Shown one piece after another: positions 1 through 24,199 of a DNA stretch of 29,156 nt (within the stretch, counting starts at the first letter, position 1; every line of letters starts with the position of its first letter). The notes beneath the pieces are model-generated. The model saw only the letters and a list, made by a program, of their open reading frames with translations. It had not been told where the DNA came from and ran no database searches. The stretch spans positions 1 to 29,156 of IMG/VR virus record IMGVR_UViG_3300020435_000218, one strand, 5' to 3'. This DNA is from a virus. A program made the position numbers and the translations under genes.

Positions 1-307
1 TAGTGAGTCCTGTCATTGCGGAGCCAAGAAATGACATTGCTAAACCACCTAGTTTCAATTTTTTGAATAAACCTGGCGACTCCTCTGTTTCTACTTTAAT
101 AGCAATTTCGGGACCTTCTTCATCATCACCCGCGGCTCTAGCAGCTTCTCTCGCAGCTTCTCTCGCAACTGCAGCAGCATCTTCAGCAGCTTCCACTTGA
201 GCCTCACCGATGTTACGGATTTGGGTAAGCTTGAAGTTTTGCTCTTTCAGTTGTTCCGTTAAAGATTGTAACGTGCTCTCAGAAGCGGGATCAGGTGCGC
301 GCGCCAT
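1..307 (-). CDS. Probable tape-measure protein, N-terminal part (runs off the window)
   Basis: The coding region starts at ATG 307-305, right after an AAGGAG ribosome site and directly abutting the TAA (310-308) of the upstream reading frame, and stays open to base 1, so about 102 residues are visible. The N-terminal 60 residues are charged and alanine-rich (AEDAAAVAREAAREAARAAG), predicted helical or coiled coil. An acidic stretch and a hydrophobic glycine-rich helix (LGGLAMSFLGSAMTGL) follow near residues 86-101. That mix of long helix and hydrophobic segment is usual in tail tape-measure proteins. The position supports it: in long-tailed phages the tape measure lies directly after the frameshifted tail-assembly-chaperone pair, which is what precedes it here. 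The call rests mainly on context; the bulk of the gene lies left of base 1, and another tail or hub component is possible. Confidence 0.55.
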   Translation of the reverse strand, partial: MARAPDPASESTLQSLTEQLKEQNFKLTQIRNIGEAQVEAAEDAAAVAREAAREAARAAGDDEEGPEIAIKVETEESPGLFKKLKLGGLAMSFLGSAMTGLT

Positions 308-505
308 TTAAATTCTCCTTTTTGCGTTTTGTTCTCTCACTTTTTCATTTTCATCTTTAATCCATTGTTGTAATAACATTACATATATTCCTCTTTCAAA
401 TGGAATCATATTATCTAATTCTGTTAAGCTCCATTTATGATGCTGAATCATAGCGAAGTTTGTTTGATAATGATTCGCCAGAGTGTCATGATTCAGCCCT
501 AGCCG
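308..505 (-). CDS. -1 frame extension of gp26 (tail assembly chaperone 'T' part), likely made by frameshifting
   Basis: An open frame of 65 codons continues from the gp26 slippery site in the -1 frame: the first codon after slippage is CGG (505-503) and the stop is TAA (310-308). The peptide begins RLGLNHDTLANHYQTNFAMI and continues with a conserved-looking helical segment (WSLTELDNMIPFERGIYVML) and a basic end. The frame has no start codon overlapping gp26. The first in-frame ATG is at 451, would yield only 47 residues, and would omit the conserved-looking NHDTLANHYQTNFA stretch. Translation by slippage from gp26 would give a fusion of 243 + 65 = 308 residues, like lambda gpG/gpGT. The stop is followed without gap by the next start codon. 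In T4 the corresponding position holds gene 51; I cannot show homology to it by eye. The reading frame is clear, the mode of expression is inferred. Confidence 0.72.
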   Translation of the reverse strand, partial: RLGLNHDTLANHYQTNFAMIQHHKWSLTELDNMIPFERGIYVMLLQQWIKDENEKVREQNAKRRI

Positions 506-1233
506 AAAAAAGAGTCTAACCCCTCAAGTACTAGGGGAGCTGACTTTTCACATTTCGGACAAGTCCATGTAATTTCATGTGTTAATCTAGGCATACTTTC
601 AAAATACTTACGTATCTTATTAAACTGTTCAGTACTAAGTGATTCAATAAAATCATTTAATTCTTTTTTAGTAGAATCTTTTGCTTTATATATTTCATCT
701 CCATCCCAGATATAATCAATACAATCAATAATCATTTTAAATACATCCTCAGTTCCTAGTGTACCACCTGTCTTGACATATTTTTGTATTGTGTCTATTT
801 GAGGAAAGTTTAATTTTACTCCAATTTCTTCTGTAAGTTCTACTTCAGGGGTTTCCATCTTTGAAGTATCCATTACTATATCACGAATATCGACTGATAT
901 TGGTGCAGCGTTGGGACAAACCTCTTCTTCACATTTAATTCTCTCTGGTTTTGCTAAATTAATTTCTATTACATCGCCAACCGATTTTCCTCTAAGTTGA
1001 AGAAAAATATATTCAACATCAAATGATGCAAGTTCTTTTAACTTAACTTCTCCTTCTGTACAAGCAGTTATGATATCTTTCATAGCTTTGGTTATAGTGG
1101 CTGGACTACCATCTTCCGCTGCTATTAATAATGCCTTTTCTTCTTTTACAAGAAATGGTCGGTATTCAATTTTCTTTCCCGTTGAAGGGATTGTCAATTC
1201 ATAAGTGGCTGTTTCCAATCTTGGTAATGCCAT
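499..1233 (-). CDS. gp26: Baseplate hub subunit gp26 (T4_baseplate family)
   Basis: This 244-residue protein matches the T4-like gp26 family in the style of its opening (MALPRLETATYELTIPSTGK), its acidic middle and its helical second half (FNKIRKYFESMPRLTHEITW). Four cysteines could form a metal site: C101 and C106, and the C-terminal CPKC pair C225/C228. The start at 1233 has a good AGGAGAA ribosome site. T4 gp26 is about 208 residues and takes part in central baseplate hub assembly. By analogy with long-tailed phages, the protein and its -1 frameshift extension may act as chaperones that coat the tape measure. It follows the tube gene by 25 bases and reads into the frameshift site at its last codons. 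The family call is from memory of sequence style and from gene order; the chaperone role is inferred. Confidence 0.82.
   Translation of the reverse strand: MALPRLETATYELTIPSTGKKIEYRPFLVKEEKALLIAAEDGSPATITKAMKDIITACTEGEVKLKELASFDVEYIFLQLRGKSVGDVIEINLAKPERIKCEEEVCPNAAPISVDIRDIVMDTSKMETPEVELTEEIGVKLNFPQIDTIQKYVKTGGTLGTEDVFKMIIDCIDYIWDGDEIYKAKDSTKKELNDFIESLSTEQFNKIRKYFESMPRLTHEITWTCPKCEKSAPLVLEGLDSFFG
505..525 (-). promoter_or_regulatory. Programmed -1 ribosomal frameshift site (slippery heptamer plus upstream SD-like element)
   Basis: Two codons before the gp26 stop the message reads T TTT TTC (511-505), which fits the X XXY YYZ rule in the zero frame (codons TCT TTT TTC GGC TAG). Eight bases upstream of it lies GAGGGG (525-520), a Shine-Dalgarno-like element at a distance where such elements stimulate -1 slippage in bacteria, as in dnaX. 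CCCCT further upstream could pair with this AGGGG to make a 5-bp hairpin. No obvious downstream stem or pseudoknot was found by eye. Confidence 0.7.
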
Positions 1234-1258: not shown

Positions 1259-1924
1259 TTATCTACCTCCACGGCCGCGAAAGGTCGGCCGATGGGGTGT
1301 TCGATTTGTTGTTCTACTTCTACCTCTACCACCGTGTTCTTCTCCATGTCGGAGTTCAGTAGATGGTGTACCATTTGAGCCAGTTGCAGTCCACCAGCTA
1401 TATGCAACATCTACTTCAAAATCTACTAGCTCTGTACTTTCCCATCCTAGTTCTATGGCGCTTATTGTTTTCGGCCAAGCTTCATGTAATGTTACTTGAT
1501 GTGTGGGGCTTGTTGTGTCTTGTTCTGTTTCATTATAAACTGAAATTTTAACAGTTCCTATAAACTCTCTATAGTAATTCATATTATATGAATTTGTACT
1601 TTGTATGTGTGAAATCCAATCATTCCAAAAGCTTCTAGCAGACCAATCATTTGTACCTAAGAAAGAAATTGATATAGGTTCTTCTGTCATTTCATAGGGA
1701 ACATCTAAACCAAATTTACCACCACTTCTGTAAGTAGTTGTTCCAAAAGTTCTAGCTGGAAATGATACAGTTTTAATAAGGAATTCTATTGATGAGGCCT
1801 GAACACTACTAACCAATGTTGTAGGTGCAATAATTTCAACAGTAAATCTATTACTTTTTGCATAACTACCTTTACCGTCCAATTTGGACATAAATTCATC
1901 AACTGCAAATGCTGATGTTGCCAT
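1259..1924 (-). CDS. Tail tube family protein (gp19/gp54-like) with Arg/Gly-rich C-terminal tail
   Basis: The 221-residue protein has the phage T4 gp19 tail-tube fold signature. It has a short N-terminal helix, then NRFTVEI near residue 26, a FLIKTVSFPARTFGTTTYR segment (residues 48-66) that fits the conserved strand and glycine turn, an NDW/FWNDWI helix, and an ending EAWPKTISAIEL...VDFEVDVAYSWW typical of the last tube strands. The family includes the major tube protein gp19 and the baseplate tube-initiator gp54. Its place among baseplate genes, away from any sheath gene in this window, favours gp54, but gp19 is not excluded. After the core (about residue 180) comes a basic, glycine-rich tail ending RGRGGR, absent from T4 tube proteins as I know them. 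Its ATG overlaps the stop of the preceding gene by one base (TAATG), implying coupled translation. Confidence 0.82.
   Translation of the reverse strand: MATSAFAVDEFMSKLDGKGSYAKSNRFTVEIIAPTTLVSSVQASSIEFLIKTVSFPARTFGTTTYRSGGKFGLDVPYEMTEEPISISFLGTNDWSARSFWNDWISHIQSTNSYNMNYYREFIGTVKISVYNETEQDTTSPTHQVTLHEAWPKTISAIELGWESTELVDFEVDVAYSWWTATGSNGTPSTELRHGEEHGGRGRSRTTNRTPHRPTFRGRGGR
1272..1291 (-). repeat. GC-rich inverted repeat at the 3' end of the tube gene
   Basis: CGGCCG occurs at 1272-1277 and 1286-1291, separated by eight bases, giving a six-base-pair all-GC stem in an otherwise AT-rich region. It lies within the codons for the arginine/glycine tail, about ten bases before the tube gene's stop and ahead of gp26. 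There is no clean U-run directly after it, so it is not a standard terminator. It could slow polymerase or shield the upstream message from 3' exonucleases. It may also merely reflect the GC-rich Arg/Gly codons. Confidence 0.4.
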
Positions 1925-8857: not shown

Positions 8858-11536
8858 ATGGCAGGAGCAATTGACAAGAAAATAATCGAAATAAAGGATG
8901 AATTGGATAACAGTCCTCGCACTCACTTGTCTGCGAGAACAGGAATTCTTGATTCTGTTACACTACTAAGAGAATTTTCTCAAACACGATTAAATGCTCT
9001 ATGTGAAGCCTTTACAGGAGGAAAAAATGAATCAGGGGTTTCTACAAATATGTCTCTTCACACCGTATGTCAATCATTGGCTGCACAGAGATTAATTTGT
9101 TGTGGAGCAGGTTCTATAAAAGGTAATGCAACAGGTATTAAAAAATTTAATTTACCAGCTTATGAAACAGTAAATGGTGCACTCAGTCTTACAGAACCAA
9201 ACACTTCTTTTATGGGAATCAATGCTACTGATATTAGTGAAACATATACTATTAATTTAACTACTTTAGCAGGAACACAGACACAGGGTGAGAATACATT
9301 TAGTACTGATGTACGAGATTATTATTTAGCTAGATCAAGGGTGACAGGAGAACTAATAGAAATTAGTGATGATATTACTCCATACTCTACACCAGATCAA
9401 GATACTCCTTTTGGTAATGCTGTTGCTTGGGGAGATGATGTAGGAAGTGAAGCGGGAACATGGAATGCTGACTTTGCTAAAGTGAACATTGCTAGTACAG
9501 CACTACAAAGTGAGGGATTATATAATGAATTAGATACTATGACATTACAAGACCATTTGACACAAGGTAGTAATTCTCAATATACTACAGTAGGTGCAGC
9601 ATTCGGCCAAAAGTTTTATTTAAAAAGACATGCAGACCATGTGAACACATTCACTATCACGGGTACAACTACAGTAGGTAGTATAGAGGTAACAGAAATA
9701 TCAGAGACAGATCTTACTAAAATTAAATATGGAGATGTGATTAGTGGAACAGGGATCCCAGATGATAACGTAACCATTGCAGCAGTACGTACTGCAGACA
9801 GTAAAATCAGACTTAGTAATTCGGGAATTGCAACAACAGATGGAACAATTACTCTTACTGTGAATAGTGTTCCATTTGGATATCAAAAAAATGATATCTT
9901 TTGTCAGATAGAAGTAGTCGGAGAAGGATTAGTTATAAATCAAAATTGGAGGCCAGTTGGAGATGATGCTGGTGATTATAGTACGGCAGATGATTCTCCA
10001 CACAAATTATTAAATGCAAATACTTCTCAATTTGTAGGCCTACTTGGTTTCTTTGATCCAGATAATGGAAGTGCTAATGCAACGAATGATTTGACAAAAG
10101 GAGCAAGGGGTGATTGGGTATCTGAAGGAAAAGAATACAATGAAACCTCATATCCTTATGTAGAAAACAATCCATTTTTTCCAGCAATAGGAGGAACACA
10201 TAAAGCGTATGAAGTAGACAATAGTGAAATTGTAGGAATACAACCTACTGGATTAGGTGAAGATGATATTCCTTCTGGAAGATATGTGAGATGGGATGTA
10301 AAAAGAGCTGATGAAGATGGTGCTTTGCCAGAACACAGATATATTATCGATAGTGCTGAAAAATTCTATTATGAACCTCAAGCTAATGGAGCACTTGCAA
10401 CGATAGGATCGGCCACAAGTATTGCAAGTCATTCTATGCCAAATGATGATGAGCCACGGGCATCATTTCCAAGAACAGGTTTGGGAAGTGTGGTAACATT
10501 AGTACGACAAGATCAAACATTAGCGGCAAGTACAAATGGATCTCAATCGATAGTTCCAGTGGATCAAGCAATGTATAATCCAACGCCTAATTCTACTACA
10601 GGAAGTGTACCATCAACTCAAACTGCATATAATTATAGAGTGAGTAGTGGTGTAATTAAGCGGGGAGGATATTCAACAACTTATTCAGGCCCTACACATA
10701 ATTCTACTGGTGGAACTACAAACCCAACAGCGGGTTTTAATTCTTCAGGGAGGTCTGCAATATCTCCAACAGATTATGTTATTGTATCTAATTATGCAGC
10801 AAGAAAATTGACAACCGATGGAAGTACGACTAATGCAGATGTTGCATTTATAACAGGTGTAATAGATGAATTACAGGGGACTACAGCAGGTGGAGCGAAA
10901 TTTCGTGATCCAATCATGGAAGGAGTATCTACTAAACACATGACTTCTGCTTCAGCGAATGATGCAAGTTTTGATACTTATATTTGTGCTACTACTGGAA
11001 CGAATGCAGTCGATACTGCATTGGCAGACATAAAATCATCATTAACTGCTTTTTATAGTGCGGCTGAAATGTCTAGCCGTAGTGTAACATTTGCAGGTAG
11101 CGATACAGCGTGGGGAGATTTAACTGCTCAGGATGATGGAACACAACAAGATTTTGATAATTTTAGTGGTCAAAACGGGCATGCAAAATGGGTAACATTT
11201 TCTACCACAGTTGGTACTCTACAAACCAATCTTGATAATAGAATTGCGGAAATAGATGCACGTATTGGTAAACCAACTCGCTCTGGATCTCCATCAACTT
11301 CAAGGGGAACACCGCCAGCAGTTTATGTGTCAGCTGTTCCAACCGCAAATAGTACAGGAGGTTACGCTCCTTATGGTAGAGCGATTTACGATAGTTGCAA
11401 TTATTTACTAGGAAAAGATCTTAAATTAATGACAGATTTAATACAAAGTATTCAGAGTTTAGGTCAACTAGTAGAGTTAGTAAAAAAGGCTAGAAACAAA
11501 TATGAAATTTATAATGGTAGAGGTAAGGAGTACTAA
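8858..11536 (+). CDS. Large virion structural protein of unknown role (892 aa)
   Basis: The 892-residue product begins with a helical domain (AIDKKIIEIKDELDNSPRTH, LDSVTLLREFSQTRLNALCE) followed by mostly beta sequence rich in Thr, Ser, Gly and Asn. Residues about 260-337 look like a separate beta-sandwich module (FTITGTTTVGSIEVTEISE; DVISGTGIPDDNVTIAAV; GTITLTVNS) inserted between FYLKRHADH and FGYQKNDIFC. Residues about 590-640 are low-complexity Ser/Thr/Gly. The C-terminus is helical (CNYLLGKDLKLMTDLIQSIQ, LVELVKKARNKYEIYNGRG). The length, composition and position between gp5 and gp25 suggest a baseplate or fibre component of the marine T4-like type. Ribosome site TAGGAT; the stop overlaps the next start. 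Confidence 0.85.
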   Translation: MAGAIDKKIIEIKDELDNSPRTHLSARTGILDSVTLLREFSQTRLNALCEAFTGGKNESGVSTNMSLHTVCQSLAAQRLICCGAGSIKGNATGIKKFNLPAYETVNGALSLTEPNTSFMGINATDISETYTINLTTLAGTQTQGENTFSTDVRDYYLARSRVTGELIEISDDITPYSTPDQDTPFGNAVAWGDDVGSEAGTWNADFAKVNIASTALQSEGLYNELDTMTLQDHLTQGSNSQYTTVGAAFGQKFYLKRHADHVNTFTITGTTTVGSIEVTEISETDLTKIKYGDVISGTGIPDDNVTIAAVRTADSKIRLSNSGIATTDGTITLTVNSVPFGYQKNDIFCQIEVVGEGLVINQNWRPVGDDAGDYSTADDSPHKLLNANTSQFVGLLGFFDPDNGSANATNDLTKGARGDWVSEGKEYNETSYPYVENNPFFPAIGGTHKAYEVDNSEIVGIQPTGLGEDDIPSGRYVRWDVKRADEDGALPEHRYIIDSAEKFYYEPQANGALATIGSATSIASHSMPNDDEPRASFPRTGLGSVVTLVRQDQTLAASTNGSQSIVPVDQAMYNPTPNSTTGSVPSTQTAYNYRVSSGVIKRGGYSTTYSGPTHNSTGGTTNPTAGFNSSGRSAISPTDYVIVSNYAARKLTTDGSTTNADVAFITGVIDELQGTTAGGAKFRDPIMEGVSTKHMTSASANDASFDTYICATTGTNAVDTALADIKSSLTAFYSAAEMSSRSVTFAGSDTAWGDLTAQDDGTQQDFDNFSGQNGHAKWVTFSTTVGTLQTNLDNRIAEIDARIGKPTRSGSPSTSRGTPPAVYVSAVPTANSTGGYAPYGRAIYDSCNYLLGKDLKLMTDLIQSIQSLGQLVELVKKARNKYEIYNGRGKEY

Positions 11537-11718
11537 TGGCAGAAGAATCTAGATGGAAAGAAGCAGAACTAAGAAGAGATGATATTAAGAAGTTGTTAGA
11601 AAATACTAAAAAACTTGCTGAAATGTATTCAGATCTTCTCGCCGTAAAACGAACCGGTTGGGAAAATGTTTTAAAGTCGAAGATCAAGAGAGAAGAAAAG
11701 GAAAAACAGAATGGCTGA
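11536..11718 (+). CDS. Small charged helical protein (60 aa)
   Basis: The 60-residue product starts at the TAATG overlap with the preceding gene, with AAGGAG about six bases upstream, and overlaps the next gene by eight bases. It is almost entirely charged helix (ESRWKEAELRRDDIKKLLEN; KLAEMYSDLLAVKRTGW), with heptad-like spacing of Leu/Ile that suggests a coiled coil, ending in a Lys/Glu-rich tail. It has no transmembrane segment. The tight coupling on both sides and a good ribosome site make it a real gene. It may bridge or chaperone the two large neighbours, but no function can be assigned. Confidence 0.8.
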   Translation: MAEESRWKEAELRRDDIKKLLENTKKLAEMYSDLLAVKRTGWENVLKSKIKREEKEKQNG

Positions 11719-13798
11719 GTTTAGTGCATTATTAACAGCAAAAGCTGAATGGAAACCCCATCAAATTGCGAAGGCGGGAGATATATCTGCGTTGGCGCAG
11801 GGCGCCTCAAATCTTGCTGAAACTGTGAAGTCCACTCTGAAGCTTGCAAGTGCTGGAATGGAAGTGGTTAAACTTATGGCCCAGTTACAAAATATTAACC
11901 CACTCTTGATGGCATTGGATGCATTGGCAGATGAAGTTATTAAACAGATTCAGGATTTAAAAGAAGCGGGGTATTACTATTTGTATGTCGATCCATATTT
12001 TGATAAAAATGTATCTCCAACACAAAAATTTGATTATGGGTTTGAACAATTAAGAGATGAAGGTGGAATACGAATATGGCAATGGAAAGATGAAAATGGA
12101 AATTATGTAGATAAGACGGGACTGCCTACAACAGCACAGTTAACCGCAGGAGATGTTAAACCAAAATTAGCCCAGCCAAGAAAATTAATTCCTGCAGGAT
12201 ATAATGATTTTGATCCAATACCAGATCCCCTTGAAAATGCAAGTAAATTTCCTACATTTACAGTAGAAGAAGTAATTGCTGAATTTACAAAAGCATTTGA
12301 TGATGAGGGGGATGTTCCTAGATATAAGTTGGTGGGGAAAATTTCTGGTGCACCAGCTGCAGGCTCTACAGTTTATGATATTGATGGTAATTCTTATACT
12401 GGATGGAATCCACAGAAAGATTTTGGATTAGAATTATTTGATTTGGGTAAGGAGAGTGAAGATGGTAAAATAATTAAAGATTATATAGCCTCAAGAAAGG
12501 CACTCAATTCTAAAGTTACACCAGGTAAACCTAATATTTTAGGGAATACAGAATTTGATGGTGGGTGTGGAGCAATAGCTATTATTATTGGAGCTCCAGA
12601 TTTCACTACGTTTCGTGATGTTTTTAATAAGTTCTCTCAAATGTTTTCTGATATTCCTGAATTTGCAGCAACTACTGGTCAAAATTTATTAGATTCATTA
12701 ACAGAGATTATTACTCCAAATGATGTAACACTTAAATTGACTCAGGTTGATACCAAGTATAAATTATTTGCTGCAGAAGATATCATAGGGGGGAAGAGAT
12801 ATGGAAGCCTTGGAAAAGTAAGGTCTGTTAACTCTGCCGCTACTATTGCAACAACTATGACAGGAACGAAAGAAGTTAGAGTGGTTGATGATGTGGGTGA
12901 TCCAATTTTTCTGAGTCCAGGAGTTCCGGCTACACAGAAAGCAGATTTTGATATGAATCCAGATGAAAGATGGGTGAACATGGAGATAGAAGTATCTCCA
13001 ATCAGAGGTATTGATGGATATAATCCGTGGATTCCTGGCGATACTGTTTTGGAAATGGAAAAAAGAGGATCTTATGGTGTAGCAACAGAAAATTTTGAAA
13101 ATTATGTTATGGTCGGTCAAGGTAGTACAGAATCACCACATGGGAGTAGAATATATCCAAAGGTTGGAAAAGTTGCAATGGAAAAATTGATGATACTTCC
13201 AGATTCCACTCCACCTGATTTTGATGGAATTCAAATCAAAGATGTTGTTCCTGGCTGGGGTGAATTTTTTCAAACATTAGAGAATTTTGTTAAACAACTA
13301 AAAGGAATGATTTCGGATTCTTCCGTTTTTATTCAAGATATGATTGACATGCTTGCAGAGATTGAAGCATTTTTACAATATCTGATTGACCTTATTGATG
13401 AGTTTTTGGGATTCTTCCGAATAACGTTGCCCTCTCAAGGTGTGTACGCCCTTTACATTCCAAATCAAAGCGGGGGTAATGAGGGGATAAAGTCAGAATT
13501 ACAGAATGCAACAGGAATTCCAAATCATGGATACGCAGCAGGAATATTATTTGTTGGTACAGAAGGAGATAAACTTATTGCGGGAGGGGGTAGTAAAAAC
13601 CCAATAGATTTATTAGCACTTGTATTAGGTCTTCTTGGTAGTGATGATTCTCAAACACCTGAAGAATTGGCTAAAGCTGAAGCTGCAGCCCAAGCCGTGA
13701 AGGAAGGAATTGCAAGTGCACTAGACAAAGGAAGTGATGATGCAGAAAAATGGAAAGATAAGAGCCCGGCAGAGAAGCTAGGAACACTATTATTTTAA
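11711..13798 (+). CDS. Virion structural protein of unknown role (695 aa)
   Basis: A 695-residue protein overlapping the preceding gene by eight bases, with AAGGA eight bases before ATG. The N-terminal ~95 residues form helices (NLAETVKSTLKLASAGMEVV, PLLMALDALADEVIKQIQDL). The middle is mixed beta with YYYLYVDPYFDKN, WQWKDENGNYVDKTG and a glycine-rich IAIIIGAPDF. About residues 380-490 are beta-rich. Residues about 515-575 form long amphipathic or hydrophobic helices (FIQDMIDMLAEIEAFLQYLI, DLIDEFLGFF). The C-terminus is Ala/Lys-rich helix. I recognise the general type from marine T4-like baseplate gene clusters but know no defined function. The helix-rich N-terminal and late hydrophobic segments could contact hub or membrane; this is speculative. 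Confidence 0.83.
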   Translation: MAEFSALLTAKAEWKPHQIAKAGDISALAQGASNLAETVKSTLKLASAGMEVVKLMAQLQNINPLLMALDALADEVIKQIQDLKEAGYYYLYVDPYFDKNVSPTQKFDYGFEQLRDEGGIRIWQWKDENGNYVDKTGLPTTAQLTAGDVKPKLAQPRKLIPAGYNDFDPIPDPLENASKFPTFTVEEVIAEFTKAFDDEGDVPRYKLVGKISGAPAAGSTVYDIDGNSYTGWNPQKDFGLELFDLGKESEDGKIIKDYIASRKALNSKVTPGKPNILGNTEFDGGCGAIAIIIGAPDFTTFRDVFNKFSQMFSDIPEFAATTGQNLLDSLTEIITPNDVTLKLTQVDTKYKLFAAEDIIGGKRYGSLGKVRSVNSAATIATTMTGTKEVRVVDDVGDPIFLSPGVPATQKADFDMNPDERWVNMEIEVSPIRGIDGYNPWIPGDTVLEMEKRGSYGVATENFENYVMVGQGSTESPHGSRIYPKVGKVAMEKLMILPDSTPPDFDGIQIKDVVPGWGEFFQTLENFVKQLKGMISDSSVFIQDMIDMLAEIEAFLQYLIDLIDEFLGFFRITLPSQGVYALYIPNQSGGNEGIKSELQNATGIPNHGYAAGILFVGTEGDKLIAGGGSKNPIDLLALVLGLLGSDDSQTPEELAKAEAAAQAVKEGIASALDKGSDDAEKWKDKSPAEKLGTLLF

Positions 13799-16102: not shown

Positions 16103-19100
16103 GTGCCCGAAATCAAAGATAAAAAAGATGTATCTGTTTTATTAGAAACTCAATTACCAGAGTTTATCAGCGACAAACATCCTAAATTCAAAAAATTCAT
16201 AGAAAAATACTATGAATTTATGGAATCCCACCAACTTTATTTTGGTTCTACATTTAGATTTGATGAAGATAAGATAGTAAATGAATCAGATGGTACAAGC
16301 TATATTTTACGAGAAGAAGGTGAAGCCTGTGGAATACAATTAGAATCAGAACGTGACACAGCCGGTAATGCAAATCTCATGTTCACACTTGGAGAAACCC
16401 TTACGGGTGAGACAAGTGGATCAACCGCAGTTGTTACTGGTACAAAAGGTAATACTATTGCCTTTATAAAATCTACCAGTAGAGCCATGTTTGATTATGG
16501 AGAAAAGGTTACAGGTAGTATATCCCGCTCGTATGGTACTTTAGCAAATGGTATTGTAGATGGAACCTTCCCAGAAGGATCAGTAGAATCCTATCGTTCA
16601 AGAGCTCCCGCCGCCGCAATAAGAGAATTAGAGCAATCACAAGATATTGATACTACATGTAGTGGTCTTATTGATGATGCATGGAAAAAAGAATTTTATA
16701 CAAATGTTCCAAAGACAACGCAAGCTGATAGACGACAACTTCTTAAAAGAATGATTCAAGTTTATCGATCAAAGGGTAACGAAGCTTCTTTTGGTTGGTT
16801 ATTTAGAACTATCTTTGACAAAGAAGATATAGAATTTTATTATCCCAAAACAGACATGTTAAAAATGTCTGATGGAAGATGGGCACTTGATAAGTCAATT
16901 AAAATTGTAACATCCGGCGCGAATAATATTACTTTATTTACTGGCAGAAAAATCACAGGACAACTTTCTAAGTGTACAGCAATTGTCGAAAGTCAACTTA
17001 CTGAATTTGCCGGAGCTCTTGAAGTTACTGAATTAACCCTATCGGATGTTGTTCAGGGTGTAGTTGATGATGAATTATTTTTCTTTAAACCTAATGAACT
17101 TATTACCTCTGAAACTGATATAGATGGATTGTATGCAGAAGCAGTCACATCGGGGATTTTACAAACTGTTACTGTAGATGTTGGTGGAACCAATTATATT
17201 GTTGGTGATGAAATTCATGTTACTGGTGGTGGAGGCCAAGGCGCCCGCGCAAGAGTAGCATCGATTTTAGATTCTGTTGTTGAAGGTATTAATGTTATAG
17301 ATTCTGGAGATGGATATGCCGTAGGAGATGTGATTGATTTTATTAATGATGGAACCGGTGGAAGCGGTGCTGCAGGACAAATTCAAACAATTATTTCTAC
17401 AGGCGCAATATTAAGAAATACAGATCTTATATCTGCCTTTGCTTCAAAACTATTGTCATCCGCCGATTATGTAAATACATTTTCTGAACATAATGCTAAC
17501 ACTCATTTGTATGGTAATTCTTCTCTAATATTTTCTGCAGGAATTAAATCTGTTTCTGCCAAACTTTATAATAGTCAAGGTGCTTATGATGCTACACAAC
17601 ATATCCTTGCCGGAGATAGAATTGCGAAACAAGTAAGTGTAAACACATCAGGTGTAACCCTTACACAATCAGTAAAAACTGTTACTCTTTCTACAGGCCT
17701 CTCTGAGAATGAAAAAATAGATATTGTTGGTGGTAAGCTTACTTATGCAAATGCTAATACTACTCTTATTACTGGATTTTCTGCTAATAATGTCTTACTG
17801 GTTAGGGATGAACATACAATTGGAGCAGGTCAAACCTTCAGCGTTGATTATGCAAGTAATACTTATTGGGGTACAGTTATTAGTGCCAATACTACCGCAT
17901 TTTTATATTCTGTTGGTTCTTATTATCGAGATTCAGATATAGACGCCTTGACTGTACAGAATTTTGTTAATGATGATAATATCATAGTATATGATTCTAA
18001 ATTTACTAAGTTGGGGGCCGCGGCTGACGCGTCAAGGGATGATTCACATAATATGCATAACGGTGTTACCTTTCAAGTTGGTAATACTCCTGCCGCTGTA
18101 ACAACTAATACCTTTACTATGGTCGATGCTCATGGAGCATTGCCTGATTTAGAGTTAGTTTGTAATGGTGCTCTTAATATGACTTCAGTTAATGTTGGAG
18201 CAATCGATGCATTTGTTCTAACATCAGGTGGTGGAAAATATGAAACATCACCCCCTGTTTCTGTTGCTAATAGTTATACTCCAACTTTAGGAAATGCATT
18301 GGATGTAACAGGTGCACCTAATGCCTTACTTAATTTAAATTTACATTCATTTACTTCAGGAACAATTGAACAAGATGGTAATGTAGTTACCTTAACTAGT
18401 GATGACTCTATAGTATTTCCGGACGCTAATTCTGGAGTACTTACACTTACATACGCAAATGGAGCAACAGATGAAATAACTGAAGTTACTAATTCTAGTG
18501 TTATTAGAGTAACTTCAGAGAAACTTTTTGGGGTTGGTACAGGAGATAATCCCGATAAAGAAACCTTTTCTCTTTCTTATATGGCTCTTGCGAATAATAT
18601 CGCACCCAATAGTTTACTCTATAATGATGATTATTCCGCCAGAGGAAGAGTTCTTGATTTTATAGACAATCCTACTTTACCCACACAAAATCCATATATT
18701 GCTAATGGTAATACGACCATTAGAGTGGATATGTTAACCACTCAAGATTTTGGTGGTGTTATAGAACACATATTATTAGAAGGAAAAGATTTTCATAAGG
18801 ATGTTTATAGCCATCAAAAACTTTTACTTGAACATCCAACAATTGGATCGCAACACGGTGGGGGAGGAATATTTTTAACAGAAGATTGTGTTGAATTTTT
18901 AGTAATGGAAGATGATGATCTCATTTGTAATGAATCAGATGAGTCAAGATTTTATTCAGAAGTTACTACGGGTGACCGTGTTACTGCATATAGCAATGGT
19001 ACTACCACATATACCACAGGAACTATTGCTCAATCGGGGACTACAGTTACAGGAGTAGGTACTATATTTCCAAATGATTTTGTTCGTGGAACTATTACCT

Positions 19101-22100
19101 ATTCAGGGGATGATGATACAACTTCAATAATTACAGGATATACTAATGCTACATCATTCACAGTTGAAGATTCTAAGACAGTATCAGCGGGTAACACATA
19201 TTCAATTACTTATAATCCTGTTAGAACGTGGGGAATAAATCGTGAAATTACACTAGCAGCTGGTGGTACAGGAAATAGAACGGTTACTGTAACAGAAGAA
19301 GCACACTATTTGAGGTCAGGTGATAAGGTTAAGATTACTGGATCTGGAACTGAGATTTTTAATGGTATATATCCAATTACTGTTGCGAACAATACTACTT
19401 ACACTTATACTTTACCAGAAGATACGGGAGTAACTTCACCTTCAGGTGAAATTAGATCGAGGCCGGTTTCATCAGTATGGCTCTCCACATCTAATGCAGT
19501 TTCAATGGATACCTCACCAAAAGGTAATAATGCTATAATTGAAGTTTCAGCTATTGCGATTGGTGCAATTCAATCCGCAGAAGTTTATGATTTTGGTGCA
19601 GGATATTCTTCTGTTCCAGCACTTTCAACTACTTCTGGTGATCAGAATGCCGAACTTACCGCAGGACTTGGTGCTTATGCAACATATCCTGGATATTACA
19701 CCGCCACACAAGGATTGCTTAGTGGTGTACCGAAGCTTCAGGATAATAAGTATTATCAAAATTTCTCTTATGTTCTAAAAACCGATTTTGATGTAAACGA
19801 TTTTCGTAATTCAGTAAAAAGATTGATCCACCCATCCGGCCTAATAATGTTTGGTGAATTGGCCATACGTACTAAGGTTTCAGCACAAATGTTTGATGCT
19901 GCTACTAATAATGTTGATGATATAGGAACTATTGTACAAGAAGGGCTGGATAATTATGGAAAAAAATATCATACTATTGTTCTAACTCAAAATGCAGCAA
20001 CCGCAAATGCTCAATATCGGTCTACGAATACTCAACCTGAATTTGAAATTTATACTGCGAGACATCCGTGGCAAGCAATGGATGCCAGACTTGAGACAGC
20101 CGATGAACAAAATCTACAGTTAGAAGACTTTAGAGATATCACATCTATAGTACGAAGCAATTCCACAATGTATGTGGTTACAGAATATTTACATGGATTA
20201 GAAGCCGGTGATACGATTAAAATTTCTGGAGATGAATCCGGTCAACAATTCAACAACAAATATACTGTTACAACATCGCCTACTACAAACACATATACTG
20301 TTACTCCATCACCGGATCATGGTGGCGATGTTGATCAAAACATGTATGATGGATATCTTTATGTTCAATTAGAAGATTTTGATACCGGTAATAATGTTCT
20401 TATGGAAGATGGTAATGAGTTGTTGATGGAACCTTCAGCTTATTTGAAATCTGAAATAACAGCATTTGCAGATGTTTTCCGTGCAGACGCAACAAATTGG
20501 GATTCACCCTTTGCCGGTAATCTTCAAAATGAAGATGATACTGAGATTTTACTTGAACGTGGAGGATCTTATCTCTATCCATCAATTCAATTTCCTGAAG
20601 CAGAGTCAGGAGTTATATCCATTGATGTGAGTTTCAATAGTGATGTTCTCCTTGAAGATGATAATGGAACTTATGGATGGGGATACCTCTTAGATGAAAA
20701 TTCCGGAGCATTAGGTACAGGGCCACAAAGATTTATTTCTCTTGAAGAAGATACACAAGGACCGGATCATCAATATGAAAGTATTCCGATTGTAGATACC
20801 CATGTAATGGAGACTTGGTTTAATTCTGCAAGAGATCATTTAATTTCTGAAAACGGCATAGATCGTTTCATGCATGAAGATGAAGGATTATTGACATTAG
20901 ATACTATACCAATTACTTATGATGCTTCCTTTACCAAACATATTAGAAACTTTGCACACTATAATTGTATTGTAGCAGAGGATGGTTCACCATTAATCAA
21001 TGAAGAAAGTATCGGGCCAATTGGAAGTAATACCTATTTTACAGTAGAAGATGAATATGGCCTACGACAAAATAAACGTACAGATTTAGAATTTGATCTT
21101 GTTGAGTCACTTAATTGGCATCTCTTAATGGAAGATGAAAATCATTTTGCTCAAGAAGTAGATGAAACACGATTCCTTACAGAAGAAAGCATTGTAAAAG
21201 TTTCTACACGCGAAATAAAGCCTCACCTTTATGATACAATGGGATATCATGTAAGGATGGAAAATGAGGATTATCTTGAACATGAAGATGGAACGCTGGC
21301 GATTATAGAAGCTAATCAAGTAGGGGTAGACTACCAAAGAATAGAATATAATCTTTATGAAACAATCTACTGGCACATAATGCAAGAAGATGGTGTAACA
21401 CACACCAGTCTTGAAGATGGTACACGTTTAACTACAGAAGATTTTAATTTAAAAGCAACTTCTTTATTACAACCACCAGTAAAAAACATATATGGTGTGG
21501 ACACTATGGGGTGGCATATAGAATTGGAAGATGCATCACTCCTTGCGACCCTTTCTAGAGTTGATATTACAGTAACCGCAGGTGGCTCCGGCCCCGCTTT
21601 TATATTTGATGGTACAGAGGCCGCTGTTCTTACACTTACAGGGCAAAGAACATATCGTTTTATTATGGAACATTCTTCATTGCGTCCCTCAGAGACAGAG
21701 GCAGATTGGCATCCCTTAAGATTTTCCAAAACACAAGATGGTGAATGGGGTCCGTCAGGAGACATGTCAGACGGTGGTGAAGATTATACAGAGGGAGTTA
21801 CAGTAAATGGTGAGCCAGGAGTATCAGGATCTTATGTTGAATTTACACCAACCAATCTAACTCAACTAGTTTATTATTTTTGTGATAGCCATAGTGGCAT
21901 GGGAGCAGAATTACATATTGTCGCTCAAGATGTTAGCACACAATATCTTGCAATGGAAGACTTTCATAAAGATTTGGGTCAAGTCAATCTTTCAAGAATT
22001 CTTCAAGACATTCCTGAAAATAAAGCTCCTGATATTACCAAACGTTATGTTACAGAAGAAGCACCAAGTGATATGCAAAGGTGGACACCAGCAAACCATG

Positions 22101-24199
22101 AATTAGATTATATTGAAACTTGGCAAGATACAGTTGTTACAAGAACTTTTGGTATGCAACCCTTTAGACCACATTATGTTTCAAACTGGGCTGACGCGGA
22201 ATTATCTTTTGTTGATGAGAAATTTACACAAGAGGATGATTCAGGAGTAATACTATTAGAACATCCTGTAACAAATCAAAATTACTTGCTTGCGGAAGAT
22301 TTTCCTGAATTGAATCAAGATGTACTAAACCTTCAAAGAGAACTTTTGGATGGAATATTATTAGAAGATTCTTTACAGACTTTAGGTACTATTGATGGTA
22401 GACAATATGATTATATTCAACTTGAAGAAATGGTAGAACATCAAGTAATAAGCCTTGAAGATATTGTTCCAGCTTTTGGAAATAACCCTGGCGATCTATA
22501 TTCACTTAATGGAATTCGTCAAGCGCCGATTACTATGGAACGTTTTCAAATTACTAGATTTGATATGAGTCATTCTACAGTTATAGAACATCCAATAGCA
22601 CTTTCAACTACAGAAGATGGTACTCATGGCGGTGGTGTGGAATTTACATCCGGAATGACTGCTGATCGAGTGACATACAACGTAAAAAGTCTTGAAGATA
22701 TTGTTCCACCTTTTGGAAATAACCCTGGCGATTTATTTGATGTTGATGGAGTCCAGAAACCAGAGATTAATTTTTCGAATCGAAACCAAGCTCTTAGAAT
22801 TGAAGTAAGTGATGCAACAATGTCGGAACATCCAGTAGCACTTTCAACAACAAGTGATGGTACTCATAATAGTGGTGTAGCATATACGGCCGGACAGGTT
22901 TCAGCTAATAGTACGTTTATAGTAGAAAGTCTTGAAGATATAACTGATCCTTTTGGAAACAATCCTGGGGACCTGTATGCAGTTGGACTACAAGGATCAG
23001 CTCTAACTCAGCAACCAACATTGATTTTTCCTAATCGACTAGGAGTAATAAGATTTGATACAAGCGATTCCACATTGAGTGAACATCCATTTAGACTTTC
23101 AACAACAAGTGATGGTACTCATAATGGTGGTGTGGAATACACAACCGGAAAAACTATTGTTGGTACGCCAGGACAGAATGGATCTTATACCGATTATGTA
23201 TTGAGTAGAACTACACCAAATACATTATATTATTATTGTCATACTCATGAAGGAATGGGAAATTCAATTACAGTTGCACAAACATCGTATTATGAATGGA
23301 AATTTGATATTAATACACCGAATACATTATATTATTATTGTACCTCTCATGAAGGAATGGGAAATCAAATTAATATTGCAGAAGAATTGTATGCAGAATA
23401 CTATCTTGGAGGAGACGCGCCAGATCTATTATATTATTATTGCGAAATGCATGAAGGAATGGGGAATAAAATTAATGTTGTTGATAGGTCAGGAAATAAG
23501 AGAGCATTACTAGAAACAGCCAAACCAGTTGCAGAAGGTTATGGTGTAGAATATACTCCAACTCAAGCTTGGTCTGTTCTTCCTGCATATCGATATAGTA
23601 GAATATTAACGAGAATGAAGGGCACAATTTCTTTCTCACACATGGGAACTACTGGAACTGGATCTGGAAGTGAATTTACTGAACAACTTAGGGTTGGAGA
23701 AGAATTTCAAACATTAGATGAAAATATTATAGATGAAGATTCTGGTGGAGGTATATTATTAGAAACTGATGAAAGAATAGAAGCCGAAGAAATTCGAATT
23801 ATTCATGTACAAAATGAAGACCTTGCTCAAGATTTATTGGGATGTCAAATTAGAAATTTTCGATGGTTAATAACCACAGAAGATACAACAGTTGCCGCGC
23901 ATGGTACTCATGCCGGGGTCACCGGAGAGTATTCAGCATTCGATACTTCTGCGGAAAGTTTTTGGATTACTACTGATGCAACTAACCAAGCTCTTATAGT
24001 TGGTTTAAATCATGAAGTTGGGGTCCTTGAACAAGAAACTCCCGATTGGGAAAATATTAATATGCTTTGGGAAGACGGGTCAAAAATGACAGTTATAGAT
24101 GCACAAGCCTTTATTGTGAAGACTATTACTAATGATCTTGAACTTGAAGTAACTAGAAAACATATTGGTGGTACTGATAACGTAACCTACCAATTGTAA
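16103..24199 (+). CDS. Giant baseplate-associated structural protein (2698 aa) in the gp7 position, with cupredoxin-like repeats
   Basis: A 2698-residue protein starting at a GTG three bases after gp6. Residues 1-45 form a helix (PKFKKFIEKYYEFMESHQ). Residues 185-265 are a helical domain (ADRRQLLKRMIQVYRSKGNE, ASFGWLFRTIFDKEDIEFYY) followed by SDGRW, a type I associate with the protein after gp6 in marine T4-like phages. Residues about 355-430 repeat a GGxxYxVGD pattern. The middle is beta-rich modules. Residues 1620-1810 hold five degenerate YH/WHxxxED repeats. Residues 1818-1940 are a cupredoxin-like domain (H1870, C1927, H1930, M1933). Residues 2117-2460 hold separated and joined halves of such domains. 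In T4 this slot is gp7 (1032 residues, wedge initiator), and by synteny it may play that role; no sequence likeness to T4 gp7 is visible. The reading frame has no break, so it is one gene. Confidence 0.88.
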   Translation: MPEIKDKKDVSVLLETQLPEFISDKHPKFKKFIEKYYEFMESHQLYFGSTFRFDEDKIVNESDGTSYILREEGEACGIQLESERDTAGNANLMFTLGETLTGETSGSTAVVTGTKGNTIAFIKSTSRAMFDYGEKVTGSISRSYGTLANGIVDGTFPEGSVESYRSRAPAAAIRELEQSQDIDTTCSGLIDDAWKKEFYTNVPKTTQADRRQLLKRMIQVYRSKGNEASFGWLFRTIFDKEDIEFYYPKTDMLKMSDGRWALDKSIKIVTSGANNITLFTGRKITGQLSKCTAIVESQLTEFAGALEVTELTLSDVVQGVVDDELFFFKPNELITSETDIDGLYAEAVTSGILQTVTVDVGGTNYIVGDEIHVTGGGGQGARARVASILDSVVEGINVIDSGDGYAVGDVIDFINDGTGGSGAAGQIQTIISTGAILRNTDLISAFASKLLSSADYVNTFSEHNANTHLYGNSSLIFSAGIKSVSAKLYNSQGAYDATQHILAGDRIAKQVSVNTSGVTLTQSVKTVTLSTGLSENEKIDIVGGKLTYANANTTLITGFSANNVLLVRDEHTIGAGQTFSVDYASNTYWGTVISANTTAFLYSVGSYYRDSDIDALTVQNFVNDDNIIVYDSKFTKLGAAADASRDDSHNMHNGVTFQVGNTPAAVTTNTFTMVDAHGALPDLELVCNGALNMTSVNVGAIDAFVLTSGGGKYETSPPVSVANSYTPTLGNALDVTGAPNALLNLNLHSFTSGTIEQDGNVVTLTSDDSIVFPDANSGVLTLTYANGATDEITEVTNSSVIRVTSEKLFGVGTGDNPDKETFSLSYMALANNIAPNSLLYNDDYSARGRVLDFIDNPTLPTQNPYIANGNTTIRVDMLTTQDFGGVIEHILLEGKDFHKDVYSHQKLLLEHPTIGSQHGGGGIFLTEDCVEFLVMEDDDLICNESDESRFYSEVTTGDRVTAYSNGTTTYTTGTIAQSGTTVTGVGTIFPNDFVRGTITYSGDDDTTSIITGYTNATSFTVEDSKTVSAGNTYSITYNPVRTWGINREITLAAGGTGNRTVTVTEEAHYLRSGDKVKITGSGTEIFNGIYPITVANNTTYTYTLPEDTGVTSPSGEIRSRPVSSVWLSTSNAVSMDTSPKGNNAIIEVSAIAIGAIQSAEVYDFGAGYSSVPALSTTSGDQNAELTAGLGAYATYPGYYTATQGLLSGVPKLQDNKYYQNFSYVLKTDFDVNDFRNSVKRLIHPSGLIMFGELAIRTKVSAQMFDAATNNVDDIGTIVQEGLDNYGKKYHTIVLTQNAATANAQYRSTNTQPEFEIYTARHPWQAMDARLETADEQNLQLEDFRDITSIVRSNSTMYVVTEYLHGLEAGDTIKISGDESGQQFNNKYTVTTSPTTNTYTVTPSPDHGGDVDQNMYDGYLYVQLEDFDTGNNVLMEDGNELLMEPSAYLKSEITAFADVFRADATNWDSPFAGNLQNEDDTEILLERGGSYLYPSIQFPEAESGVISIDVSFNSDVLLEDDNGTYGWGYLLDENSGALGTGPQRFISLEEDTQGPDHQYESIPIVDTHVMETWFNSARDHLISENGIDRFMHEDEGLLTLDTIPITYDASFTKHIRNFAHYNCIVAEDGSPLINEESIGPIGSNTYFTVEDEYGLRQNKRTDLEFDLVESLNWHLLMEDENHFAQEVDETRFLTEESIVKVSTREIKPHLYDTMGYHVRMENEDYLEHEDGTLAIIEANQVGVDYQRIEYNLYETIYWHIMQEDGVTHTSLEDGTRLTTEDFNLKATSLLQPPVKNIYGVDTMGWHIELEDASLLATLSRVDITVTAGGSGPAFIFDGTEAAVLTLTGQRTYRFIMEHSSLRPSETEADWHPLRFSKTQDGEWGPSGDMSDGGEDYTEGVTVNGEPGVSGSYVEFTPTNLTQLVYYFCDSHSGMGAELHIVAQDVSTQYLAMEDFHKDLGQVNLSRILQDIPENKAPDITKRYVTEEAPSDMQRWTPANHELDYIETWQDTVVTRTFGMQPFRPHYVSNWADAELSFVDEKFTQEDDSGVILLEHPVTNQNYLLAEDFPELNQDVLNLQRELLDGILLEDSLQTLGTIDGRQYDYIQLEEMVEHQVISLEDIVPAFGNNPGDLYSLNGIRQAPITMERFQITRFDMSHSTVIEHPIALSTTEDGTHGGGVEFTSGMTADRVTYNVKSLEDIVPPFGNNPGDLFDVDGVQKPEINFSNRNQALRIEVSDATMSEHPVALSTTSDGTHNSGVAYTAGQVSANSTFIVESLEDITDPFGNNPGDLYAVGLQGSALTQQPTLIFPNRLGVIRFDTSDSTLSEHPFRLSTTSDGTHNGGVEYTTGKTIVGTPGQNGSYTDYVLSRTTPNTLYYYCHTHEGMGNSITVAQTSYYEWKFDINTPNTLYYYCTSHEGMGNQINIAEELYAEYYLGGDAPDLLYYYCEMHEGMGNKINVVDRSGNKRALLETAKPVAEGYGVEYTPTQAWSVLPAYRYSRILTRMKGTISFSHMGTTGTGSGSEFTEQLRVGEEFQTLDENIIDEDSGGGILLETDERIEAEEIRIIHVQNEDLAQDLLGCQIRNFRWLITTEDTTVAAHGTHAGVTGEYSAFDTSAESFWITTDATNQALIVGLNHEVGVLEQETPDWENINMLWEDGSKMTVIDAQAFIVKTITNDLELEVTRKHIGGTDNVTYQL
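20960..21520 (+). repeat. Degenerate ~45-residue repeats (WHxxxED...EDGTxLxTE) in the giant protein
   Basis: Five related units begin at residues 1620 (YNCIVAEDGSPLINEES), 1672 (WHLLMEDENHFAQEVDETRF), 1715 (YHVRMENEDYLEHEDGTL), 1757 (WHIMQEDGVTHTSLEDGTRL) and 1804 (WHIELEDASLL). Spacings are 52, 43, 42 and 47 residues. Each starts with an aromatic residue, usually followed by His, then an ED pair, then a second acidic block with Leu. The copies are diverged at DNA level, so the array is old. Confidence 0.65.
21554..21922 (+). other. Cupredoxin-like domain A inside the giant protein
   Basis: Residues 1818-1940 run SRVDITVTAGG, AFIFDG, LTLTGQRTYRFIMEHSS, WHPLRFS (H1870), a glycine-rich loop, GSYVEFTPTN and VYYFCDSHSGMGAELHIV (C1927, H1930, M1933). 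The His upstream and the Cys-x2-His-x2-Met loop between the last two strands match the type 1 copper ligand set with the spacing of amicyanin. Copper binding is inferred from ligand pattern only. Confidence 0.6.
22451..23212 (+). repeat. Three tandem ~80-residue repeats (SLEDI..FGNNPGDL plus cupredoxin front half)
   Basis: Units start at 22451, 22688 and 22928 (237- and 240-base periods; the third is longer and runs into a complete domain). Each opens SLEDI and FGNNPGDL and continues with a front-half cupredoxin-like segment containing EHPxxLSTTxDGTH (H2163, H2243, H2328). The first two units stop after a short strand and lack the Cys-x2-His-x2-Met loop; the third proceeds to it. Nucleotide identity is high in the first 45 bases of each unit, suggesting recent duplication. 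Confidence 0.8.
23213..23480 (+). repeat. Three 102-base tandem repeats of the cupredoxin back half (YYYCxxHEGMGN)
   Basis: Units start at 23213, 23315 and 23417, exactly 34 codons apart. Each encodes LYYYC-x2-HEGMGN-x-I-x-V/I with the Cys/His/Met triads C2379/H2382/M2385, C2413/H2416/M2419 and C2447/H2450/M2453. Only the first is attached to a front half; the second and third are preceded by short strands (YYEWKFDI; YAEYYLGG) in place of one. Confidence 0.85.

Follow-up and report, generated by a model that had tools for sequence, protein, structure and literature searches.

The 3' end of the gp26 gene investigated here is, with high confidence, a programmed -1 ribosomal frameshift cassette that gives two tail assembly chaperones from one gene. 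The analysed stretch of DNA (the window) is a 29-kb IMG/VR fragment (29,156 nt) of a T4-like phage, and the locus is situated on its minus strand. According to the proposed mechanism, most ribosomes would stop at the TAG codon 501..499 and release gp26, the short form of 244 aa (TAC-N). A minority of ribosomes would pause on the heptamer T TTT TTC, held there by an upstream Shine-Dalgarno-like (SD-like) pairing and a downstream stem-loop, slip one base back and read as far as the TAA codon 310..308, which would result in a predicted gp26-gp51 fusion of 308 aa (TAC-NC). If the analogy with G and GT of phage lambda holds, the tape measure protein would be coated by the short form, and recruitment of tail-tube subunits would fall to the long form. 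In T4, the equivalent pair is encoded by two separate genes, with gene 26 giving the short form and gene 51 the fused long one. Both the occurrence and the rate of this slippage are what we infer from the sequences.

The anatomy of the cassette can be read directly from the window. The gp26 homologue (1233..499, minus strand) matches PF12322 (E 2.9e-63) and PHROG 150 (E 6.8e-70), and its 3' end, GAG GGG TTA GAC TCT TTT TTC GGC TAG, encodes a protein ending in GLDSFFG. The initial annotation had pointed to a slippery heptamer just before the gp26 stop, an SD-like element eight bases upstream of it and an open -1 frame that lacks a good start and ends flush with the next gene, and each of these elements was found. 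The heptamer lies at 511..505 (minus strand), in register with the gp26 frame and of the X XXY YYZ form, and is followed by GGC and the gp26 stop codon. The SD-like GAGGGG, a candidate upstream stimulator, occupies 525..520 (minus strand), 8 nt (519..512) from the heptamer, and a candidate stem-loop, a possible downstream stimulator, occupies 442..497 (minus strand), starting 7 nt past the heptamer; both spacers are those of a frameshift cassette. A -1 slip continues with CGG CTA GGG CTG and enters the extension (308..508, minus strand; FRLGLNHD...NAKRRI), which corresponds to the gp51 tail (TAC-C). Its stop codon TAA is abutted by the ATG at 307 of the next ORF (2..307, minus strand), which takes the tape-measure position and of which only the start is present, as the window end cuts it. 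The first ATG of the -1 frame is located at 451..449, with no SD-like motif ahead of it.

Elsewhere on the minus strand, the window encodes a head closure protein (PHROG 218) and a DNA end protector (PHROG 429). The plus strand carries an unusually large composite virion protein, a 2698-aa ORF with a GTG start (16103-24199), which has scattered matches to baseplate wedge, neck (Hc2), virion structural and tail fibre families. Two further plus-strand ORFs within the baseplate cluster, of 892 aa (8858-11536) and 695 aa (11711-13798), gave no PHROG match.

The heptamer is nearly invariant among relatives. The search for gp26 homologues found 70 IMG/VR loci, 66 of which include the gene end, and these 66 together with 13 named phage records make up the 79 relatives outside the T4 duplicated-gene group. 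The window and all but one of these relatives (78 of 79) have a poly-T heptamer in register. TTTTTTC was found in all 66 IMG/VR gene ends, and 12 of the 13 named records carry a heptamer in register: TTTTTTC in S-SSM7, Sf-CH1b, Mosig, Syn1, S-N03, Nitratidesulfovibrio SRB7757, Aeromonas AP1, Vibrio F86, Stenotrophomonas Moby and Rhizobium LG08, TTTTTTT in HTVC008M, where it belongs to a run of 8 T, and TTTTTTG in Rhizobium RL2RES. The sole exception, Klebsiella phage 0507-KN2-1 (L083, Ackermannviridae), has no TTTTTTC heptamer. Its gp26 ends in GAG ATT TTC ATT TAA, and the -1 frame stays open for about 54 codons beyond this stop; this phage may use a different slip site or another mechanism.

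Codon choice at the heptamer was assessed in 33 representatives (below 80% identity, window included), which were picked among sequences carrying the heptamer. The residue before Phe-Phe varies (S, A, D or N, encoded by TCT, AGT, GCT, GAT or AAT), yet its codon ends in T in all 33. In a GC-rich relative (L070), TTT makes up about 4% of Phe codons and is nevertheless chosen at the heptamer. Given the residues and the local codon usage, the chance probability of the heptamer is about 1e-34 as a product over the 33 representatives, a value that overstates the strength of the evidence because the representatives are treated as independent.

The fixed register of the heptamer bears on how and whether the frame is changed. 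Bacterial RNA polymerase is known to slip on long runs of T or A, and the 8-T run of HTVC008M would agree with a transcriptional rather than ribosomal change of frame. However, nearly all relatives possess only 6 T, ended by C and kept in one codon register, and a run of this length is too short for efficient polymerase slippage. Moreover, the placement of the SD-like pairing and the stem-loop relative to the heptamer fits ribosomal slippage, and we consider the transcriptional alternative highly improbable. A sequencing or assembly error, or the decay of a naturally fused gene, could also produce such a frame break, and a fused single-frame version does exist in T4 gp51. The same break in the same register, however, recurs in dozens of independent metagenome contigs and in finished isolates, and the 0-frame stop always follows within about 8 codons of the heptamer in the relatives. 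The probability of this reading is practically negligible, since it is already refuted by independent sequences.

The -1 frame downstream of the heptamer is maintained as a protein-coding frame. Across the 33 representatives it contains 0 stops in 1584 codons, as compared with 168 and 114 stops in the other two frames, and its pN/pS is 0.25, as compared with 0.87 and 2.0. The expectation that both the heptamer and the -1 frame would be conserved in relatives is thus borne out. The extension matches PHROG 634, the family of the baseplate hub assembly catalyst gp51, over positions 56-120 of 121 (E 8.7e-29), and PHROG 150, the gp26 family profile, is matched as well at its end (positions 232-279 of 282, E 5e-7). 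A profile of 20 extensions aligns to residues 200-244 of T4 gp51 (E 6e-6), and three helices are predicted in the model of the extension (pLDDT 76). Extensions in the other representatives are 57-68 codons long; L024, with 49 codons, is the only one clearly shortened, which could reflect a contig error or real decay.

The question arises whether gp51 is instead a separate small protein started within the -1 frame, for example at ATG 451, with the heptamer being incidental. Many phage records annotate it so, and an ATG at extension codon 19 or 20 is common among relatives. This ATG is not universal, however: L005 and L040 have TTG at codon 19, and the -1 frame of SRB7757 is devoid of ATG, GTG and TTG throughout. 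In the window, no SD-like motif precedes ATG 451, which falls inside the 3' arm of the predicted stem. Furthermore, conservation extends to the residues preceding the codon-19 ATG (LSHD.L...Y..NF), whose T4 gp51 counterparts in the alignment are joined to the gp26 domain, and the heptamer itself hardly varies. Internal initiation at ATG 451 was rejected on the grounds of the non-conserved start, the missing SD-like motif and SRB7757, and a separately started gp51 appears quite improbable. The initial annotation had named loss of the heptamer with retention of an independent downstream start as the pattern contrary to frameshifting; the opposite was found, as relatives retain the heptamer and do not share a conserved start. 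Separate gp51 genes of 43-63 aa are annotated in NC_020484 (HTVC008M), NC_015287 (S-SSM7), NC_015288 (Syn1), NC_070889 (RL2RES), OZ196285 (F86), NC_070959 (S-N03) and MT647606 (Mosig), and the extension of PV340850 (Sf-CH1b) has no annotation at all. In the seven annotated records, gp51 should probably be given as a frameshift join with gp26.

Under programmed ribosomal frameshifting, stimulatory elements may be expected upstream of the slippery site, downstream of it or on both sides. Pairing with the anti-SD sequence in the six codons before the heptamer averages -7.66 kcal/mol in the 33 representatives versus -6.07 kcal/mol in synonymous recodings, an excess of z -5.5 if the representatives were independent; control windows of the same genes average -2.6 to -4.3 kcal/mol. 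In the window alone, 6% of synonymous recodings match its anti-SD strength. When folding was scanned in 60-nt windows across the gene in the same representatives, the main dip, the strongest in the scanned region, started 5 nt after the heptamer (mean z -2.28 ± 0.35; 18 of 33 below -2), and windows upstream of the heptamer gave z values of about 0 to -0.6. A null that preserves the -1 frame protein gave a mean z of -2.31 and a z of -5.8 for the window.

The predicted stem of the window (-17.8 kcal/mol) consists of an outer helix (497-488/451-442) and an inner helix (479-474/457-452), and 9 outer and 6 inner pairs are kept in 12 of 12 distinct close sequences. No compensatory covariation was seen in the stem, as the close relatives show one-sided changes only (A-U/G-U, G-U/G-C). 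Therefore, the support for the stem is positional and energetic, not compensatory. Other clades build stems from unrelated sequence, many at a spacing of 6-7 nt. The stem is not universal: a significant one is absent in the freshwater clade (L046, L049, L052, L070), HTVC008M and RL2RES. A trade-off between SD-like strength and stem strength was not seen across relatives (Spearman 0.07), and an Rfam search returned no known element.

The position of the locus among tail genes is consistent with a role in tail assembly. Upstream of gp26 lies a tail-tube family gene (1259..1924, minus strand; PHROG 45, PF06841) and downstream a long ORF, an order that matches V-G/T-H of lambda. In relatives with enough flank, the downstream ORFs in the tape-measure position are mostly of 565-919 aa, and the one in the nearest relative (L001) has 779 aa and also starts flush with the extension stop. 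The downstream ORF of HTVC008M matches tape-measure profiles (E 8e-12), and that of L001 does so weakly (E 0.0035). Placement between a tail-tube gene and a tape measure gene, as in lambda, is thus found, with the downstream ORF incomplete in the window and supported via the HTVC008M profile. In a PDB comparison of the AlphaFold model of gp26 (pLDDT 84), the HK97 tail assembly chaperone 2OB9 ranked highest by probability (0.72, rmsd 2.7 over 61 columns); at a weak E of 1.4, this match is suggestive and not proof. A sequence search of solved structures returned no match. Gene order, the type of cassette and the literature on T4 lead us to infer that the two products may act as tail assembly chaperones.

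The comparison with T4 explains the relation between gp26 and gp51. T4 gp26 (208 aa) is the PF12322 domain alone, without the gp51 tail. In T4 gp51 (249 aa), PF12322 covers residues 1-201 (E 3.9e-52) and is followed by the gp51 tail also seen in the extension; the protein matches PHROG 150 almost to the profile end as well as PHROG 634. Therefore, T4 gp51 is the in-frame equivalent of the frameshift product, T4 gp26 corresponds to the short product, and the two T4 genes encode what the window phage would make by frameshifting. For the same reason, the proposed connection of T4 genes 26 and 51 with the lambda G/GT system holds. Assembly in T4 requires gp51, which is not part of the particle (PMC3004832). 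T4 gp26 has no heptamer, the tail being located on gp51. It (L071, 3803-4429, minus strand) ends in RGLKEFFELL, with the codons GAG TTC TTT, and the RGLKEFF end looks like a relic of a slippery-site peptide from which the heptamer was lost. We lean towards a broader interpretation for the T4 superfamily, in which gp26 carries a three-part signal composed of the SD-like element, a near-invariant heptamer and a stem-loop that keeps its position while its sequence varies. Frameshifting would then be the older state, which Tevenvirinae such as T4 replaced by gene duplication, leaving the RGLKEFF relic, and the Straboviridae phage AP1 would still retain the heptamer.

The abstract of the 2022 study by Vladimirov and colleagues reportedly states that frameshifting is conserved in several T4-like groups and that the T4 group has separate genes 26 and 51. 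As cited in two later papers (PMC10885494; PMC12846349), this work established which genes encode the tail assembly chaperones of T4-like phages (Vladimirov, Gautam and Davidson, Virology 2022, 566:9-15). The PRFect paper cites it for T4-like phages that have a short gene and a fused long gene and do not use frameshifting (PMC10885494), and the phage Adele paper for poly-T -1 frameshift signals in T4-like TAC-N genes (PMC12846349). Since the study as cited covers poly-T frameshifting in T4-like phages, our central claim is not new. No description of the stem-loop and the SD-like element at gp26 was found in the literature, where Vladimirov et al. (2022) was represented by the papers citing it, and the stem-loop may be a detail added to the published frameshift.

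Summarizing, the presented results favour reading T4 hub genes 26 and 51, obscure for a long time, as the counterpart of lambda G/GT in T4. They also suggest that gp51 is mis-annotated in many cyanophage records and related ones, where the tail of a frameshift product is listed as a small gene of its own. In culturable phages such as Syn1, S-PM2 and HTVC008M, the proportion of the short and long forms can be tested directly. That related phages are split between frameshifting and duplicated genes offers a clear example of a single function with two modes of encoding: T4 and the window phage have the PF12322 family and the gp51 tail in common, but T4 uses two adjacent genes on opposite strands, the long one fused in frame, whereas the window phage has a single gene with a -1 extension that would be reached by frameshifting. 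The TAC locus of Vandenendeviridae and Andersonviridae (PMC12846349) is similar in its conserved poly-T -1 frameshift at the TAC-N end and in the usual annotation of the downstream frame as a separate gene, but belongs to other phage families and has a GTTTTT motif. With lambda G/GT (Xu, Hendrix and Duda 2004), the locus shares the gene order, a short ORF with an overlapping -1 ORF that is open in relatives, a slippery site close to where the short gene ends and two predicted products with a common N-terminus. It differs in its heptamer and in belonging to a T4-like phage with a contractile tail, and a profile search found no sequence similarity to lambda G or T.
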